From positions 806,001-870,000 of the forward strand of contig NZ_AP028461.1 of NCBI RefSeq assembly GCF_033097365.1: a stretch of DNA of 64,000 nt. Direction: 5' to 3'. Origin of the DNA: Actinoplanes sichuanensis. Its GTDB lineage: Bacteria > Actinomycetota > Actinomycetes > Mycobacteriales > Micromonosporaceae. Positions 8-10,568 of this stretch are shown here, piece after piece; positions within the stretch are counted from its first letter, which is position 1, and each line of letters begins with the position of its first letter. A program made the position numbers and the translations under genes. Below the pieces are notes generated by a model that saw nothing but the letters and a program-made list of their open reading frames with translations, made no database searches and was not told the DNA's origin.

Positions 8-1039
8 TTGGCCCATCAGTTACGCGACATGCACGGCGCCGCCCGTGCCGTCGCCTATCTGATGCTGGCCGCCGGGCCCTACAACTTCGTGACCGGTGTC
101 CTGATGAAGCTCGGCGACCCGCTGGGCCAGGTCATCGCCCTCGCCGTCACCTCGTTCATCCTGTTCACCGTCGGCCTGATCTGCCTGCGCCGCCCGCAGG
201 CCATGCCCAGACTGTTCTGGCTGCTCGTGCCACTGATGTCGGCGGGCGTCATCACCGGGCTCAACGTGGGCACCGCGGACGCCACCATGGGTCCGCAACT
301 GTTCTACCTGTGGCCGCTGCTCTACGCCGCGATGTTCCTCAACCGCCGGATGATCGCCCTCACCGTCGTCCAGATCTCCGCCGGGCACGCGCTCACCGCC
401 TTCCAGTTCCAGGAGAGCGGACAGGCCCTGCTCGACTGGATCGCGATCACCGTGGCCATGTCGATGACCGCCGTCGTCGTCGCCGGCCTCCGCGAACGCA
501 ACGACCGGCTACGCGGCGTGCTGGAGACCCAGGCCACCTCCGACTCGCTCACCGGCGCCGCCAACCGGCGCGCCTTCGACGCCGAACTCGACCGGGCCGT
601 CGCCGACGCCGACGACCACGAACCGCTCGCGCTCATCATGATCGACGTCGACCACTTCAAGACGATCAACGACACCTGGGGCCATGCGGTCGGGGACCTC
701 GCCCTGCGTACCGTCGCCGACGCCCTCCGCGACGCCGCCGAGGACCGCCGGCACATGGTCGCCCGCCTCGGCGGCGACGAGTTCGCCGTGCTGCTGCGGG
801 CCGCGCCCTACGCGGCCGTCCGCTTCACCGAACTCGCCCGCGCCCATGTCGGCGCCACCACCGGACTACCGTGCGGCCCGCCGAGCCTCAGCATCGGCAT
901 CGCCGTGCTCCCCGACCACGCCACCGGCGCCGACGAACTTCAGAAGGTCGCCGACGCGGCCCTCTACCGGGCCAAGGAGGGTGGCCGGGGCCGCAGCATG
1001 ATGGCCCATCCACCCCAGCGACTGCCCGCCTCGGCCTGA
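8..1039 (+). CDS. Membrane-anchored GGDEF diguanylate cyclase (5' end uncertain)
   Basis: Predicted to make cyclic di-GMP from two GTP at the cytoplasmic face of the membrane. About five to six hydrophobic segments fill residues 10-160, and a GGDEF domain follows from about residue 175. The intact signature RLGGDEF lies near residue 253-259 and the metal/substrate motif DVDHFKTINDTWGH is upstream of it. The frame is open to the first base, so the TTG at 8 may not be the start; ATG at 29 is an alternative and neither has a clear Shine-Dalgarno. It is the first of three GGDEF proteins in the window. It converges on the giant minus-strand gene with a single base between the stop codons. The signal sensed by the membrane part is unknown. 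Confidence 0.85.
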   Translation: MAHQLRDMHGAARAVAYLMLAAGPYNFVTGVLMKLGDPLGQVIALAVTSFILFTVGLICLRRPQAMPRLFWLLVPLMSAGVITGLNVGTADATMGPQLFYLWPLLYAAMFLNRRMIALTVVQISAGHALTAFQFQESGQALLDWIAITVAMSMTAVVVAGLRERNDRLRGVLETQATSDSLTGAANRRAFDAELDRAVADADDHEPLALIMIDVDHFKTINDTWGHAVGDLALRTVADALRDAAEDRRHMVARLGGDEFAVLLRAAPYAAVRFTELARAHVGATTGLPCGPPSLSIGIAVLPDHATGADELQKVADAALYRAKEGGRGRSMMAHPPQRLPASA

Positions 1040-1040
1040 C

Positions 1041-4000
1041 TCACCCCGGCTGGTCACCGTCCGCGGCCGGCTTACCGCCCAGCGGGGTCAGGATCTCCGG
1101 AGACCTGCGGGGGTACGGGCCCCAACCGTCCCGCAACACGTGGATGTAGACCGCCTCCAGGCACACCCCGATGCGCTCGACCAGATCGGTGTCCTCCGGG
1201 GCGCCCAGCCGGACCGCCCGCGCGAAATGGTCCAGCGCCTCCATGTGCCGCCCCTGGTCGAAGCAGCTGCGCCCGGCGTTCTCGTGCACCACACTGCGCA
1301 CCGCCGGCGACACCTCCGCCTCCACCGCCTTCTGGAACAGCCGGTCGGCCTCCATGTAGTCACCCCGCAGTCGCAGCACGTGCGCCAGCTCCGCCTGGGC
1401 GATCACCATCGACTGCAGGTCGTGCGCCGACTCGGCGTGCGCCAGCGCCAGCCGGCTCGCCGCGGCGGCCATACCCAGCTCACCGAGCAGGCGGTACACC
1501 TCCGCGCGTACGCTCAGCAGCCCCGCCTTGACGATGTTGTCCGCCTCGTCGGTGAGCGGCCCGTCGAGCCGTTCCCCGAGCGCCCGCAGCGCGTCCCGGT
1601 TGTCGACGACCTCCCGCAGCGTCGCCCCGTCCAGCCGCCATCTGATCGCCGACAGTTCGGCCGCGGTCAGCGGCAGATGCGGAGCGAGGTCCGGCCCGCG
1701 CGGCACGTCGGACGCCGCCCGCGCACCGTTCTGCTGCTTCGGTCGGGCCGCGTCGGCTGCTCCGCCGGCCGGCTGCTCTCCGGCCGCACCGAGCTTCGCC
1801 GCGGCCTGCCCGTCGGCGCCCGCGCCGCTCCCGGCCTGCCGTCCGGTGCCCGAGTCGGTCTCGGCCTGGCGTTCGGCGCCCGCGCCGTCTCCGGCCTGCG
1901 GTTCGCCGGCCCGGTCGGTCTCGGCCCGCCGTTCAGCGGCCGTGCCGTTTCCGGTCCGCCGTTCACCGTTCGCGCCCGCGGGTCCCTCGGCCGTGGCCCG
2001 CTGTTCGCCGGCTGCCTTCGGGTGCCCGTCGGTCGTCGTCTCGCCGTCGGTCGTCGCCGACTGTCCACCGGTTGCGGTGGCCCGGCCGTCGGCGGCCTGA
2101 TGGCGGGCTTCCCCGGCCTTCCCGGCCGCGGCGGCGGCCCGGCCGTCACCCATCTCGCCACCGGCCGGCTCCGCGTCGGCGCCGGCCTTGGAGGCGTGCC
2201 GACCGGAGCCGCCCTGGACTCCCGAAGCCCCGTCGCGACCGGCGGCCGTGCCACCGGTCGCCGTGTCACTGCTCGCCGTGTCACTGCTCGCCGCTCCACC
2301 GGTCGCCGTGCCACCGGCGTCCGGCTCGCCGTCACCGGCAGCCTTCGAACCGCCGGCCTTGCTGACGAACCAGCCACCACCGAACGCCGTGTCCGCATAG
2401 CGCCGAGGCTCGGTGTCCGGCCCGGACGTCTCCAGCCGACCGATCGGCCGCAGATTGTGCAGCGTCCCGTCGGCGTCCATGTACGGCCGATCCGCCTCGA
2501 CCGGCTCCGGACGGCTCAGCGGGAACCCGATCTTCTCCCGCCCGGCCCCGGACGGGGTACCGGGCTTCGGCATCGCCACCGTGGGCCGCTCAGCCGTAGC
2601 CCCCGACCCCTCGGCCTGTCGCCCGTCACCCGGCGCGGCCCCCGAGGGCGCCCCGGAGACCGGCGTGGCTCCGATCCGCCCACCGGCCGAGCGGACGTCA
2701 CCCGCCGATGCGGGCGCGGGCGAGACGGGCGTCGGCCCGTTCCATCCGGTCGCTGCGGGACCCGTCGCCGGTGAGACCGGTGTGGGCCCGTTCCATCCGG
2801 CTTGACGTCCATCCGGCGTGGCGGCTGGGGAGACCGGTGTGGTGCCGTTCCAGCCAGGCTGCCCGGCGGGCGCACCCGAGGCAGGCGTCGCGGTTCCACC
2901 CGATCCCACCCCGTGGACCGCCGCACCGGACGCGGGCGGCGCGGATCGCGGCGTGGCACCGTTCCATCCAGCCGGTCCGGCCTGCGCACCGGCGGCTTGC
3001 GCCGGACCGGCGGGGGTAATCCCGGCCCGTCCGGTACCAGCTTGTGCCGGTCCGGTGTGGGCACCGCCCTGCGAGGTCTCGGCCTGTCCGGTACCAGCTT
3101 GTGCCGGTCCGGTGTGGGCACCGCCCTGCAAGGTCTCGGCCCGTCCGGTACCGGCCCGTCCGGCACCGGCCGTGGTGGCCGCGGTGTTGTCGGCGGCGTG
3201 TGCGCCATGCCGTGGGCCGCCCGAGGTGGGCGCCGATCCCGGCATGCCCCTGGTGGCCTGCTCGCCGGTGGGACCATCCCAGGCGGCACCCGTCGGGGAC
3301 GCCGTCTCCGGAGCCGGTCCGAACCCGTTCCACGGCCCGAACGGCACACCCGGTGCGGGCGGCGCCGAACGGGGCACGCTGGACGCGTCACCCGGACCGG
3401 CGTTGTTCCGTGCGCCACCGGCCGGCGGCGCACCCGGCGCACCGAACCCGGTCCGCGAACCCTCGGCACCGGTAGCCGGAGGCGCCGAACGCGGCGCGCT
3501 GCCACCCGGAGCCGCGGTACCGGCGGCCCCTTGCGCTCCGAAGCCGTTCCACGAGTTCGCCAGCCCACCGGGATCGTTCGAAGGCGGTGCCGATCGTGGC
3601 GCCGCACTGTTCCGCCCGTCGCCGGGCCGTCCGGCTCCCGTGCCGTTCCAGCCGTCGGCGGAACCGGCCTGGGACGCTCCTGGAGCGGCCTGCGGCTGCC
3701 CGGACACCGTCGGTCCCACACCGGAATGTGCGCCACCGGGCCCCGAAGGCGCGCCACCGGGCGCCACCCGCGGTGAACCGGGCGCCGAGTACCCGCCACC
3801 GGGCGCGGCTTGCGGGGCGCCGGGACCGGTCTGCGGGATGCCGGGACCGGTCTGCGGGGCACCGGGACCGGACTGCGGGATGCCGGGACCGGACTGCGGA
3901 GTTCCTGAGCCGGGTGGCGTCTGGCCGGGCCCGTGCGGACCGGGCGCGTTCCGGACAGCGGGCGGCCAGGCGGCCGACGGGTGCCCGGCCACGGCCGGAT

Positions 4001-4781
4001 CCCCACCCGGAATCGGCTGCACACCCGAACCCATGTCACCGGGAACCTGCGGCCGGGCCGCGGGCGGCCACGCCGTGGCCGCCGCGGGCTGACCAGCCAC
4101 GCCACCCTCGGGAGCGGGCGGCGAAACCGGTCGCGCACCGGCCGCCGGTTGAGTCGCATCCGGAACCATGGCCCACGGCCCGTCCCCCTCACTGAGGAAG
4201 ACGTGCGCGGTCCGAGGCGACCGGGCTCGCTGCTGCGGAACCCCACCCTCGCCCGGCCGCTCGAAGCCGCCGGTCACGTCGGGCCGGCCTCCACCCCAGC
4301 GGGCGTCGCCGGGAGCGCCGGGCCGTTCGAAGCCGCCGGTGACATCCGGACGTCCACCGGCTCCACCCCAGCGGGGATCGGTCGGGGCGCCGGGCCGTTC
4401 GAAGCCGCCGGTGACGTCGGGCCGTCCTCCACCCCAGCGGGCGTCGCCGGGAGCGCCGGGTCGTTCGAAGCCGCCGGTGACGTCGGGCCGTCCGCCCGGG
4501 CCGCCCCATTGTCCATCGCCGGGTGCGGCGGGTCGTTCGAAGCCGCCGGTCACATCCGGACGGGTTGCGTTGCCGGGAGCCGCGTTCCCGTCGGGGCGGT
4601 CCGTTGCGGGACCGGGCTGCGGTCCGTTCGGACCGATCACGCGCGCCGGCGGAACCGGCGCCGGAGCGGCGACGACACGCGGCGCAACCGGCGGCTCGGC
4701 CTTGATGACGCGCGGCGCGGGAGGCGGTGTCGCAGCGCTGACAACCTTCGGCGGTACGGGCGCCTCAGCCCTCCGGACCAC
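1041..4781 (-). CDS. C-terminal part of a giant Pro/Ala/Gly-rich protein with a TPR-like C-terminal domain
   Basis: About 1,000 residues of low-complexity Pro/Gly/Ala/Thr-rich sequence are followed by a folded alpha-helical domain in the last ~220 residues. Its paired helices (for example SVRAEVYRLLGELGMAAAA and AELAHVLRLRGDYMEADRLF) look like tetratricopeptide repeats, a protein-protein interaction fold. The low-complexity part has five RPDVTGGFERP repeats near its start and many AxPRSAPPA and WNGxTPVSPA motifs. The only start available is GTG at 4781, with no Shine-Dalgarno before it, and the same frame meets a stop at 4824-4826. The preceding reading frame (ending 4637) overlaps it one base out of phase. 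I infer that both are one gene of about 2,220 codons, joined by a -1 frameshift or broken by an indel. Function unknown. Confidence 0.7.
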   Translation of the reverse strand: MVRRAEAPVPPKVVSAATPPPAPRVIKAEPPVAPRVVAAPAPVPPARVIGPNGPQPGPATDRPDGNAAPGNATRPDVTGGFERPAAPGDGQWGGPGGRPDVTGGFERPGAPGDARWGGGRPDVTGGFERPGAPTDPRWGGAGGRPDVTGGFERPGAPGDARWGGGRPDVTGGFERPGEGGVPQQRARSPRTAHVFLSEGDGPWAMVPDATQPAAGARPVSPPAPEGGVAGQPAAATAWPPAARPQVPGDMGSGVQPIPGGDPAVAGHPSAAWPPAVRNAPGPHGPGQTPPGSGTPQSGPGIPQSGPGAPQTGPGIPQTGPGAPQAAPGGGYSAPGSPRVAPGGAPSGPGGAHSGVGPTVSGQPQAAPGASQAGSADGWNGTGAGRPGDGRNSAAPRSAPPSNDPGGLANSWNGFGAQGAAGTAAPGGSAPRSAPPATGAEGSRTGFGAPGAPPAGGARNNAGPGDASSVPRSAPPAPGVPFGPWNGFGPAPETASPTGAAWDGPTGEQATRGMPGSAPTSGGPRHGAHAADNTAATTAGAGRAGTGRAETLQGGAHTGPAQAGTGQAETSQGGAHTGPAQAGTGRAGITPAGPAQAAGAQAGPAGWNGATPRSAPPASGAAVHGVGSGGTATPASGAPAGQPGWNGTTPVSPAATPDGRQAGWNGPTPVSPATGPAATGWNGPTPVSPAPASAGDVRSAGGRIGATPVSGAPSGAAPGDGRQAEGSGATAERPTVAMPKPGTPSGAGREKIGFPLSRPEPVEADRPYMDADGTLHNLRPIGRLETSGPDTEPRRYADTAFGGGWFVSKAGGSKAAGDGEPDAGGTATGGAASSDTASSDTATGGTAAGRDGASGVQGGSGRHASKAGADAEPAGGEMGDGRAAAAAGKAGEARHQAADGRATATGGQSATTDGETTTDGHPKAAGEQRATAEGPAGANGERRTGNGTAAERRAETDRAGEPQAGDGAGAERQAETDSGTGRQAGSGAGADGQAAAKLGAAGEQPAGGAADAARPKQQNGARAASDVPRGPDLAPHLPLTAAELSAIRWRLDGATLREVVDNRDALRALGERLDGPLTDEADNIVKAGLLSVRAEVYRLLGELGMAAAASRLALAHAESAHDLQSMVIAQAELAHVLRLRGDYMEADRLFQKAVEAEVSPAVRSVVHENAGRSCFDQGRHMEALDHFARAVRLGAPEDTDLVERIGVCLEAVYIHVLRDGWGPYPRRSPEILTPLGGKPAADGDQPG
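3031..3150 (-). repeat. 57-bp in-frame tandem repeat (about two copies)
   Basis: A 57-bp unit starting ggtaccagcttgtgccggtc is repeated about twice almost without change. It encodes 19-residue units containing GGAHTGPAQAGTG in the low-complexity part of the giant protein. Near-identity at third codon positions indicates recent expansion. Confidence 0.75.
4253..4562 (-). repeat. Five RPDVTGGFERP-coding repeats (66-72 bp period)
   Basis: Five copies of a unit coding RPDVTGGFERP are separated by variable Gly/Pro/Ala/Trp linkers (GAPGDARWGG and variants). The core is conserved at DNA level as well as in protein. The repeats lie just after the frameshift point in the giant gene. Confidence 0.8.
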
Positions 4782-7702
4782 CCGGGGCCCGTTGTCGGCG
4801 CCGGGGAAGCCGGCCCGTTCCCATCAGACGGATCCGGTGCGGCGCCGCCGTTCGTGCCTTGACCTGCTCCCGGACCCCGGCCATCCCGGCTGCTGAGATC
4901 CACGGTCGGCTCAGCGGGCGTGTCCGCGGCCGGGCCCCGCTGTCCGGGCACGAGCCGCGCGACAGCCGAACGCCAGCCCCCGCGCCGCTCCGAACCCTTC
5001 CGCTCAGCCTTGCCGGAAGCCTCCCGCCCAGCGCTTTCCGTGTCACCCTGACCGGGAACGGCCTTGCCACCGACCACCGGCGGCGCAACCGGCCGACCAG
5101 CCGACCCGTCGGCCCCATACTCCGTGGCACCGGGCGGAGTAGCCCAGCCGGCCGCCGTGTCCGGCTGCGGCGCGGTCCAGTCACCCTGCCCCGGGGTGGC
5201 GCCCTGCCCTTGGGTGGTCCAGTCACCCTGGCCCTGCGGGGCTCCGCTGCCGGCGCCGCCCTGCGGCCGCTGTCCTGCGGAGGCCTGCCCACCCGGACCG
5301 GTGTTCCGATACTCGCCCTGCGCGGCGTTCGCCGCAGCCGGCCGCTCCGGGGCGGTGCCCCAGGGGTCTGTCGCGCCACGCGGGTCCCCGGTGTTCCCGA
5401 GTCCGGCGTGACCACCCGAGGCCTCCGGCGCGCCGCGACCGTCGGCGGCACCGGCCAACTCGGTCGGAACCGTCGGCGCCTCGGTCTCCGGCATACCGCG
5501 CCGGTCGGGGGCGCTTCCACGCCCGGCCTGGTCACCCGTGGTCTGCGGCGTGTCCCGGTATCCACCGGCGCTGCCACGCCCGGTTTGCCCGCTCGTGGCC
5601 GGCGACGTGTCGCCGGCGCTTCCCCGTCCGGTCTGACCGGCCGCCGGCTGCGGTGTGTCGCGGCGCTCGTCGGCATTCCCCTGGCCGGCCGGGGGAACCG
5701 GTGTGTCGCGGCGGTCGGCGGCGTTTCCGCGACCGGGCTCGGTCTGACCCGGGACAGCACGGTCGGAGCCGGTCTGACCCGGGACAGCGCGGTCGGAGCC
5801 GGTCTGACCCGGAACAGCGCGGTCGGACCCGGTCTCGGCCTGGCCGGGGAGGTCCGCGGGCGTGACGGTGCGGCCGGTGGCGGCCCGGCCGGGGAGGTCT
5901 CCGGCCAGGATGTCGGCGCCGTCCGGGCGGACGGCGGCACGGTCGTCGGGTGCGGTCGGGCGGCGTTCGGCCTGGTCGCGGGCTACCGGCTCGGCCGGGG
6001 CACGGGTGTCCCCGGCTGCGGGCAGGGCCGGTTCGCGGCGCTGGTCCTGGCGGTAGCGGTCGTCGCCCGTACCGAAGACCTGGTCGAAATCGTCCGAACC
6101 GGAGGCCGGGACCTGCGCGCGTCCGGTGACCGCCTGGTCGTCGCGTCGTGCCGGACCGGACCGCCGGGCGTCCTCGTCGCGTCGCGGACGTCGCCCGCCG
6201 GGCGGGCGGATCGGGCCGAAGTCGTCGTCCTCCCATGTCTCGCCGCCGCGGCCGGGACGGGCCTGACGGTCGCGGGAACGGTTGGTGTCCTCCCAGTATT
6301 CGTCGGCGCCCAGTTCGATGGTGCGGCCGCTGCCGGGCCGGTCGCCGTCGCGTTCGATGTGGCCCTCGTCGTCCCACATCTCGTCGGCGCGGATCTCCAT
6401 GGCCCGCCGGCCACGGCCACGACGGTCGTCGCGAGGATCCCGCCGGTCGTCACCGGCCAGCGGGTCACGGGAATCTCCCGACTGCACGCGGAGATCGTCC
6501 CGGGTGTTCCGGCCGTCGCGCGGGTCACGCAGCTCACCACGCTGGTCGCGAAGGTCCCGGGAGTCGCCACGCTGGTCGCGGACGTCGCCACGCGGGTCGC
6601 GGGAGTCGCTGCGCGGATCACGCACGTCACCGCGGCCGTCGAGCAGATCGCGCTGGTCGCGGGAGTCGCCGCGCGGGTCGCGGAGGTCGCCGCGTGGGTC
6701 GCGGGCCTCGCCGCGGGCGCCGCGTTGGTCGCGGAGATCGCGGGAGCCGCTGCGCGGGTCGCGGAAATCGTCGCGCTGGTCGCCGGGTTGCGCGCGGAGA
6801 TCGTCCCGGACGTTCCGGCCGTCGCGCGGGTCGCGGACGTCACCACGTGGATCGCGGAGATCGCGGGAGTCGCTGCGCGGGTCGCGGACGTCACCGCGCG
6901 GGTCGCGGGCGTCACGCGGGTCGCGGGACTGGCCGCGAAGGTCACGGGGATCACGCAGGTCACCGCGCGAATCACGGGAATCGCGCCCATCACGCAGATC
7001 ACCGCGTGAATCGCGTACCTCGCGGTCGTCCCGCAGGTCCCGTGGAGCGCGCGGGTCACGGGAGTCGCGGGGGTTGCGCAGGTCACGGGAATCACGCACG
7101 TCGCTGCGCTTGGAAGGCCGCCGCTCCCGGTCGTCCCAGCGCCCGTCCCGGTCGTCCCGGCGGGCCGGCGTGCCGTCCCGACGGTCGTCCCAGCCGCGTC
7201 CCGGGTCGTCGGAGCGACGGCGGGGTGGCGCGTCGTCCCGGTAGCGGGAGGACGGTCCGTAGCCGCGTTCGTCGTCACGGCGCTCGTCGGCCGTACGCTC
7301 ATAGCGGTTGTCTCCGCCGCGACGCTGGGCCGCGCCGCCTCGCCGGAGCTCCGGGCGGGCCGCGGGGTCGACGATCGGAAAGTCGGGTTTGTCGAAGTCG
7401 ACGCCGAGTTCGGGCCGGTTGAAGTCGACGTCGTCGAAGTCGTCGCCGACCAGGTTGTCGACGGACGTGTCGATCGGTTCGAAGTCGGGGTCGTCGAGCC
7501 AGGAGGGCCGTTCGGAGTCGAAGGCCGCCTGCTTCTGGCGGAGGGTGCCGTCCTCGGGCGCGCCCGCGCGACGGCGGGTGGGCATGACCGGGTCCGGAGT
7601 GGTGCGTTTGGTGTAGTGCTTCTCCTGTTTGACCGCGGAGCTGGGCATGAAGGAGTACTCGTCGTACTCGTCCTCCCAGTACTCGTCGTCTTCGAAGCTC
7701 AT
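4637..7702 (-). CDS. N-terminal part of the giant low-complexity protein (acidic head, Arg/Asp repeats)
   Basis: The ATG at 7702 opens a very acidic head (MSFEDDEYWEDEYDEYSF) followed by a non-repetitive segment to about residue 120. Roughly 250 residues made almost only of R, D, P, G, S and L follow (RDPRGDVRDxRD-like units, residues ~190-420). A Gln/Gly/Thr-rich region with three 10-residue GQTGSDRAVP units comes next. After about residue 973 the frame turns into an Arg-rich string typical of an out-of-phase reading, while the overlapping frame ending at 1041 takes up plausible protein sequence. The true product therefore probably continues there. No signal peptide or membrane segment is seen, so it should be cytoplasmic. 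Alternating charge and disorder suggest a scaffold or condensate-forming protein; this is inference only. Confidence 0.7.
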   Translation of the reverse strand: MSFEDDEYWEDEYDEYSFMPSSAVKQEKHYTKRTTPDPVMPTRRRAGAPEDGTLRQKQAAFDSERPSWLDDPDFEPIDTSVDNLVGDDFDDVDFNRPELGVDFDKPDFPIVDPAARPELRRGGAAQRRGGDNRYERTADERRDDERGYGPSSRYRDDAPPRRRSDDPGRGWDDRRDGTPARRDDRDGRWDDRERRPSKRSDVRDSRDLRNPRDSRDPRAPRDLRDDREVRDSRGDLRDGRDSRDSRGDLRDPRDLRGQSRDPRDARDPRGDVRDPRSDSRDLRDPRGDVRDPRDGRNVRDDLRAQPGDQRDDFRDPRSGSRDLRDQRGARGEARDPRGDLRDPRGDSRDQRDLLDGRGDVRDPRSDSRDPRGDVRDQRGDSRDLRDQRGELRDPRDGRNTRDDLRVQSGDSRDPLAGDDRRDPRDDRRGRGRRAMEIRADEMWDDEGHIERDGDRPGSGRTIELGADEYWEDTNRSRDRQARPGRGGETWEDDDFGPIRPPGGRRPRRDEDARRSGPARRDDQAVTGRAQVPASGSDDFDQVFGTGDDRYRQDQRREPALPAAGDTRAPAEPVARDQAERRPTAPDDRAAVRPDGADILAGDLPGRAATGRTVTPADLPGQAETGSDRAVPGQTGSDRAVPGQTGSDRAVPGQTEPGRGNAADRRDTPVPPAGQGNADERRDTPQPAAGQTGRGSAGDTSPATSGQTGRGSAGGYRDTPQTTGDQAGRGSAPDRRGMPETEAPTVPTELAGAADGRGAPEASGGHAGLGNTGDPRGATDPWGTAPERPAAANAAQGEYRNTGPGGQASAGQRPQGGAGSGAPQGQGDWTTQGQGATPGQGDWTAPQPDTAAGWATPPGATEYGADGSAGRPVAPPVVGGKAVPGQGDTESAGREASGKAERKGSERRGGWRSAVARLVPGQRGPAADTPAEPTVDLSSRDGRGPGAGQGTNGGAAPDPSDGNGPASPAPTTGPGWSGGLRRPYRRRLSALRHRLPRRASSRPSRRLRRVSSPLRRRFRRRA
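4784..4790 (-). other. Candidate -1 frameshift site or indel (GGGCCCC)
   Basis: Read on the minus strand in the upstream frame, the codons are ACG GGC CCC GGG. The heptamer G-GGC-CCC has the X-XXY-YYZ form of a -1 slippery site. Slipping back one base moves the ribosome into the frame that runs to 1041. The other frame is closed at 4824-4826, so the change of phase must fall between there and 4637, and protein-like sequence switches frame at this point. A miscounted homopolymer base in the assembly would look the same. Confidence 0.5.
5740..5836 (-). repeat. 30-bp in-frame tandem repeat, three copies
   Basis: A 30-bp unit is repeated three times with one or two base differences. It encodes GQTGSDRAVP in the N-terminal part of the giant protein. 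Confidence 0.8.
6440..7130 (-). repeat. Long Arg/Asp low-complexity repeat tract
   Basis: About 690 bp of degenerate short repeats built on cgcgggtcgcg and related words code for RDxRD/RDPRGD strings. The unit length varies (6-12 residues), so it is a degenerate array rather than a strict tandem repeat. The opposite strand also stays open here because of the biased composition. Confidence 0.75.
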
Positions 7703-8637: not shown

Positions 8638-8678
8638 GGAGGCGGCGGCGGAATCCTGTCATTCCGCCGCCGTCCTCC
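8638..8678. repeat. Inverted repeat, hairpin 2
   Basis: GGAGGCGGCGGCGGAAT pairs with ATTCCGCCGCCGTCCTCC around the six-base loop CCTGTC, with a single bulge. It directly abuts the 19-bp repeat array, whose first copy overlaps the right arm. Confidence 0.8.
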
Positions 8679-8844
8679 CACGAGCAGGGCCGCCTCCCAC
8701 GAGCAGGGCCGCCTCCCACGAGCAGGGCCGCCTCCCACGAGCAGGGCCGCCTCCCACGAGCAGGGCCGCCTCCCACGAGCAGGGCCGCCTCCCACGAGCA
8801 GGGCCGCCTCCCACGAGCAGGGCCGCCTCCCACGAGCAGGGCCG
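8674..8844. repeat. Nine perfect copies of a 19-bp tandem repeat
   Basis: The unit CCTCCCACGAGCAGGGCCG is repeated nine times without a spacer or mismatch (171 bp). Because 19 is not a multiple of three, all frames read the same 19-residue cycle, so open frames here are an artefact. There are no spacers, so it is not a CRISPR array. It ends 20 bp beyond the stop codon of the minus-strand gene at 8864-9292. Confidence 0.95.
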
Positions 8845-9322: not shown

Positions 9323-10063
9323 CTACCCTCGACCTTCCGCCGCGTCCCGCCACCCGTCAACGGACTTTGTGCGACGCGCCGAATAACGCAGCAGCGCCGC
9401 CTCGAACGCCGGATCGGCCACCCCGGCGCGATGCCCGGGAAAATCGGCGTCGACCTCAGGAAGGCCGAAGAAGGCCCCGGCGGATCCGAATGCCCCGGCG
9501 GGCCCGGAGGCTGCGACGGGCCTGGAGGCCGCGAGGGGTCCGGAGGTGGCGGCGGATCCGGAGGCCCCGGCGGGCCTGGAGGCCGCGACGGGTCCGGAGG
9601 TGGCGGCGGATCCGGAGGCCCCGGCGGGCCCGGAGGCTGCGACGGGTCCGGAGGTTGCGGCTTCGCGCGGGGGAGAGACGGAAAGACCGGCGAGGGCGGC
9701 GATGCTCCGGGCCACCGCGCCCGGCGCGGCGATCATCGCGATTCCCAGAGCCTCGGCGGTACGGACATCGCGCCCCGCCGGATCGTCGACGGTGAGCAGA
9801 TACCAGCCCCGCTCCTCGGACCACCCGGCCCCGGCCTGATCGTGGTCCCACACCGGCCGCCCGTGCAGCCGAACCTGCCGGGCCAGGTCGAACGGGATCC
9901 ATCCGTCGCGGACCGGCCCGTCGTCGGCCCGCCAGTCGGCGACCGGCACCCCGGCGTCCTCGAGCGCCGCGGCGACGGCCCGGATGTAGGCGGCATGCGC
10001 CGACCGGCTGCCGTCCATTCCGTCGGTGCCGTCGATTCCCTCGAAGCCGCCGGTGCCGCCCAT
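9323..10063 (-). CDS. DUF6292-like protein with an internal Ala/Ser/Gly repeat tract
   Basis: 246 residues from ATG 10063, four bases after the stop of the upstream gene, which suggests coupled translation. Residues ~18-125 (HAAYIRAVAAALEDAGVPV, then WDHDQAGAGWSEERGWYLL) resemble the DUF6292 family found in actinomycetes; I base this on memory of the pattern, so treat it as tentative. Residues ~145-210 are a repetitive SGPVAASRPAGASGSAAT tract with a 54-bp DNA period. The tail after that is ordinary. An upstream start at 10288 would overlap the preceding gene by more than 200 bp and gives implausible sequence. No catalytic motif is seen. Confidence 0.6.
   Translation of the reverse strand: MGGTGGFEGIDGTDGMDGSRSAHAAYIRAVAAALEDAGVPVADWRADDGPVRDGWIPFDLARQVRLHGRPVWDHDQAGAGWSEERGWYLLTVDDPAGRDVRTAEALGIAMIAAPGAVARSIAALAGLSVSPPREAATSGPVAASGPAGASGSAATSGPVAASRPAGASGSAATSGPLAASRPVAASGPAGAFGSAGAFFGLPEVDADFPGHRAGVADPAFEAALLRYSARRTKSVDGWRDAAEGRG
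9470..9665 (-). repeat. 54-bp in-frame tandem repeat, about three copies
   Basis: Units reading ggaggtggcggcggatccgg on the plus strand recur with a 54-bp period. They code 18-residue Ala/Ser/Gly/Pro units inside the DUF6292-like protein. Confidence 0.75.
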
Positions 10064-10067
10064 GCGG

Positions 10068-10568
10068 TCAGATGACGGCGCGGCCGGCGAGTTCGACCAG
10101 ACCGGGCCGGCCGCCGAAGACCCGCCGCACCGCCGCGCCCATCCGGTCGAACAGGTCGTCGCCGCCGAAGTCGGCCGGGCCCAGTTCACCGAGCAGCAGG
10201 TGGACGGCGAGCCCGTCCTCGTGGGTGCCCGGCAGGTAGCCCTCGGCCGGCAGGTCGGTGGCGAACACCCGGCGGGCCAGGGCGGCATCGCCGTCGGGGG
10301 TGTCCGGTTCGCTGCTGTGCAGCCAGAGCAGGCCCGCCGTCTCCGGGCGCAGCACCCGCTGGAACACGCACGGCTCGACGCCGACGTCGACCAGCCCGCC
10401 GGCCCAGAACGGCTCGGACACCTCGAAGCCGGCGGCGGTCAGGGCGGCGGCGGCGGTTCGCCCGGACGGGCCGTCGTCCCACGTGATGGTCGGGGGCACC
10501 CGCTGGTCGGCGCGGGGGAGCAGACCGGGGACGACGGACAGCGCCGTGAGGAGTCGGGCGGGCGTCAT
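10068..10568 (-). CDS. Hypothetical protein, 166 residues
   Basis: The protein starts MTPARLLTALSVVPGLLPRA and has mixed alpha/beta character; no motif is recognised. A central acidic Gly-rich stretch (GELGPADFGGDDLFDRMG) precedes the C-terminus. There is no signal peptide of obvious type. It lies four bases upstream of the DUF6292-like gene and 45 bp downstream of the pirin gene, all on the minus strand, so cotranscription is likely. Coding bias supports a real gene; function unknown. Confidence 0.6.
   Translation of the reverse strand: MTPARLLTALSVVPGLLPRADQRVPPTITWDDGPSGRTAAAALTAAGFEVSEPFWAGGLVDVGVEPCVFQRVLRPETAGLLWLHSSEPDTPDGDAALARRVFATDLPAEGYLPGTHEDGLAVHLLLGELGPADFGGDDLFDRMGAAVRRVFGGRPGLVELAGRAVI

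Follow-up and report, generated by a model that had tools for sequence, protein, structure and literature searches.

A giant minus-strand gene that reads in one frame in every testable relative is broken by a change of reading frame in the record analyzed here. Its best explanation is an isolated gain or loss of bases in this record, and the likeliest source is a mistake in sequencing or assembling DNA of very high GC content. The window (the whole stretch of DNA that was analyzed, 64,000 nucleotides, to which all positions below refer) corresponds to bases 806001–870000 of a single-contig genome of 12.14 Mb. Two large open reading frames on its minus strand overlap out of phase. ORF A (7702–4637, 1021 amino acids) ends in an arginine-rich tail, and ORF B (4781–1041, 1246 amino acids) opens at GTG 4781, its frame being closed upstream by a stop codon at 4826–4824. 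Frame A (4637..7702) holds the N-terminal half of the gene and is conserved from 7702 to about 4825, with the stretch from about 4790 to 4637 representing out-of-frame read-through. Frame B (1041..4790, including a Gly-Pro-Arg ahead of GTG 4781) holds the C-terminal half. The gene has a GC content of 76%, compared to 71% for the window, and 2219 codons separate the frame-A start from the end of a C-terminal TPR-like segment. A sequence-only reading had described the arginine-rich tail, the stop that closes frame B, and a joined product of about 2,220 residues, all of which we reproduce; its proposal that the two frames carry the halves of a single protein is borne out by relatives, in which segments of both co-occur in one frame.

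Three segments served as frame markers: the acidic N-terminus in frame A, a conserved stretch of 58 residues that follows the junction in frame B (VVRRAE..., 4608..4781, minus strand), and the TPR-like segment of 216 amino acids, also in frame B (1044..1691, minus strand). The locus was taken from all 59 same-genus relatives, and 54 of them allowed a comparison of the N-terminal with the post-junction segment; the other five (G031, G037, G042, G043, and G057), in which the locus is cut by contig ends or lies on short contigs, were left out. The two segments share one frame with no stop codon between them in 54/54. For eight further named loci the junction was not yet represented in the set; two of these (L116 and L118) are contig pieces lacking the junction and were set aside, and all six testable ones, Actinoplanes xinjiangensis and Actinoplanes philippinensis included, again show a single frame. 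A frame change between these segments therefore occurs in 0 of 60 testable relatives, and the window copy alone has them in different frames. A. xinjiangensis and A. philippinensis, the nearest named relatives (98% and 96% identity in the TPR segment, respectively), have intact genes. Conservation of the N-terminal 110 residues is 60–92% identity in many relatives and lower in others, and the TPR segment was found in all 60 genomes drawn from the genus, counting the source genome.

Beyond the junction, the post-junction and TPR segments lie in a single frame in 50 of 51 comparable relatives. The exception is Actinoplanes subtropicus (G013), whose orthologue (L202, L134) is interrupted by a separate frame break at another position, between the mid segment and the TPR segment. 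Apparent single stops in L083, L095, and L102 were recognized from L143, L119, and L142, the named copies of these contigs, as natural gene ends within the aligned tail. Across the window, 171 of 267 coding-like open reading frames of relatives were matched; five of these had pieces in two frames on one strand and were judged on inspection to be antisense or over-extended frames opposite better-conserved genes. A search for near-identical copies used the orthologue L063 as query, scored on its last 219 residues, with lengths of about 1022–3251 and E ≤ 1e-60, against a database clustered at 90% identity; 7993 candidates, a capped list, were scored, and at least 27 proteins passed these limits. 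Among the matches listed (27 proteins from this clustered database), no protein approaches identity with the window across every segment, and no second assembly of the species was found. Of those listed, P0002 comes closest; it is 96% identical in the post-junction segment and 97% in the TPR segment, and matches both frames within one protein.

The position of the break can be narrowed by residues that flank the junction. From 82 loci, 50 distinct relatives were retained after removal of duplicates and of loci in which the post-junction match was missing or did not start at its first residue. In all 50, Pro-Arg immediately precedes the junction valine, and the 100 codons upstream of the junction are free of stops. 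The window encodes Gly-Pro-Arg ahead of this valine in frame B. Because the conserved Pro-Arg reads in frame B, and frame B has its stop at 4824, the length change most probably falls, in the direction of reading, after that stop and before about 4790, within the interval 4790..4824 on the minus strand. The linker at this point varies in length and sequence among species, and a composition change-point within 4824–4782 gives too faint a signal to narrow the interval further. The break sits outside any tandem array, a point that counts against error. Tandem repeats of the window include a 19-bp unit in 9.2 copies with 99% matches at 8669–8844, from which a similar peptide can be read in three frames, and repeats of 18, 54, and 72 bp at 9472–9661, within a minus-strand open reading frame at 9323–10288. 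The 8669–8844 repeat has some match in 12 of 60 genus genomes and high identity in the source genome only.

These data suggest an ordinary, single frame break that is limited to this record; a sequencing slip is the likeliest origin, and the alternative is a very recent mutation. If the slip is the cause, the living strain would lack the length change, and its gene would be continuous. The same comparative pattern is predicted by a genuine, very recent indel, a reading that we hold to be a serious possibility, with a clearly smaller share of our confidence than error receives. Such an indel would have cut the gene in two: the N-terminal part would persist as a fragment ending in an arginine-rich tail, and the downstream half would probably not be made. 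The break is unseen in any testable relative, as a recent event would be, and the A. subtropicus orthologue, broken elsewhere, indicates that a break, or a sequencing fault, has turned up in this gene on more than one occasion. Against a genuine indel stand the presence of the TPR segment in every sampled genome and the preservation of the downstream half; given both, the loss could only be a very young one. Measured against four close relatives, codon changes found in the window alone number 3 synonymous to 1 nonsynonymous in the N-terminus, 2 to 0 in the post-junction segment, and 5 to 0 in the TPR segment. The downstream half thus appears to bear no sign of decay, and the relaxed selection that would mark a decayed pseudogene after the break was not seen in these counts, which are small.

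The frequency of frame breaks elsewhere in the assembly also bears on the choice between error and mutation. As an indel-rate control, 293 genes of the relative G026 (468 kb) were compared to 464 kb of the source genome, with a match requiring at least 60% identity. The comparison matched 128 genes, 122 of them nearly full length in one frame, and flagged three; the remaining 165 yielded no usable comparison. The three flagged splits were traced to over-extended starts or to a gene on the opposite strand, so that the 128 comparable genes, over 464 kb, show no internal frame break, in a control whose composition filter excluded the giant gene and which is blind to sequence of its kind. In the reverse direction, 125 of 284 source genes were matched, 115 nearly full length, and five were flagged in G026; the flagged cases were viewed as open reading frame lists, and the one that mirrors g40 was resolved. 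Neither gene list contains the giant gene. The assembly looks clean in ordinary genes, a result that favors a genuine indel in the giant gene, but the control is mute on sequence resembling that gene. In the view of Antonov et al. 2013 (PMC3711429), unclustered frame transitions that are seen in one genome and validated by BLASTp are expected to reflect sequencing errors, not genuine indels.

Programmed −1 ribosomal frameshifting, by which slippage at G-GGC-CCC would join frames A and B, had been put forward by the sequence-only reading as one of two explanations, the other being an error at the level of single bases. Only the second stands, once widened to sequencing error or recent indel; the first we consider very improbable. 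The heptamer GGGCCCC (4784..4790, minus strand) does fit the X-XXY-YYZ form, is read in frame A as G|GGC|CCC, and is the sole in-phase XXXYYYZ heptamer in the 4823–4637 overlap; a slip at this site would yield the conserved Gly-Pro-Arg-Val. However, its presence is not beyond chance. ORF A contains six in-phase heptamers of this type, where 1000 codon shuffles average 7.1, and at least one falls in an end of the size of the overlap in 31% of these shuffles. Nor is the motif conserved: exact GGGCCCC occurs at the site in one of the 50 distinct relatives (L129), in which the gene is uninterrupted. No downstream hairpin was evident by pseudoknot-free folding, in which the 84 bases after the heptamer (4783–4700) were less stable than 189 of 200 shuffles (z = +1.37), and no upstream Shine-Dalgarno-like stimulator was seen by eye. 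Among the features expected of a frameshift gene, an in-phase heptamer within the overlap was found, whereas a conserved transition, a conserved motif, and a downstream structure were not.

Published measurements in Escherichia coli point in both directions. When the strong IS3 pseudoknot was present, all but three of 64 X_XX.Z_ZZ.N motifs (61) gave more than twice the background, GGGCCCC is absent from the three named as failing to do so, and the all-pyrimidine ZZN codon CCC shifts better than the mixed CCA or CCG; on the other hand, shifting is weaker on average for CCN codons and for motifs in which a purine X is combined with a pyrimidine Z (PMC4066793). Slippage at GGGCCCC is not impossible, yet nothing in this analysis points to it. 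The decisive observation is the uninterrupted frame of the orthologues at this site in all 60 testable relatives, a comparison that the sequence-only reading had itself named as the refuting test and that went against programmed frameshifting. One candidate for programmed frameshifting in a genome of very high GC content is thereby removed: a fitting heptamer is expected by chance in such DNA, and the orthologues decide. A search of literature listings returned nothing specific on frameshifts in Actinoplanes, or on Actinoplanes proteins combining TPRs with disorder.

Two further readings deserve little weight. It is highly doubtful that a genuine recent indel is partly rescued by slipping at G-GGC-CCC, as a ‘saviour’ frameshift soon after the mutation that would allow some full-length protein to be made. 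That frames A and B are two separate genes, the second starting at GTG 4781, is scarcely credible: this GTG does open frame B, but it has no Shine-Dalgarno sequence ahead of it by eye, as noted previously, conserved residues precede it in frame B, and relatives carry one continuous gene across the junction. The gene model ought to be interpreted as a single gene that is broken or mis-sequenced, and not as two proteins.

With the break attributed to a length change in this record, the real product would be a single protein of about 2,220 residues that has an acidic N-terminus, long linkers of low complexity and, at its C-terminus, a TPR-like domain. It has no NCBIfam family match at E 0.01. The C-terminal 216 residues score 28.6 bits against TPR_12, just under the Pfam cut-off of 30.1, and PF13424 is precomputed on 21 of 27 homologues among the matches listed. 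Structure prediction for this segment gives successive paired helices (mean pLDDT 76.9), and the best Protein Data Bank matches of the model are kinesin light chain TPR domains (TM of about 0.4), which supports a predicted TPR-like fold and no particular function. Its architecture suggests a probable role as a scaffold for the binding of partner peptides. All 60 sampled genus genomes also contain a further, weaker TPR-segment match (about 40–50% identity), likewise within a very long open frame; in the source genome it lies at G000:C1:7927407-7927988 on the plus strand, in a stop-free frame of 2219 amino acids, and probably represents a paralogous giant protein.

In the Actinoplanes orthologue L063 (1858 amino acids) and in P0003 of Actinoplanes sp. 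NEAU-A12 (2145 amino acids), the N-terminus, the post-junction segment, and the TPR tail follow one another in the same order as in the window, in one uninterrupted frame, whereas the window copy changes frame between 4824 and about 4790. The established frameshift systems dnaX (PMC3711429) and IS3/IS911 (PMC4066793), like the window, have an X_XX.Z_ZZ.N heptamer that is in phase and falls where the frames overlap; the window differs from them in that its transition and heptamer are not conserved, no stable downstream hairpin was found, and the heptamer consists of G and C only. The frameshifted genes that Antonov et al. 2013 describe as singletons (PMC3711429) offer a further parallel: no differing feature was found, and there, as in the window, the transition occurs in one genome and is validated by intact homologues.
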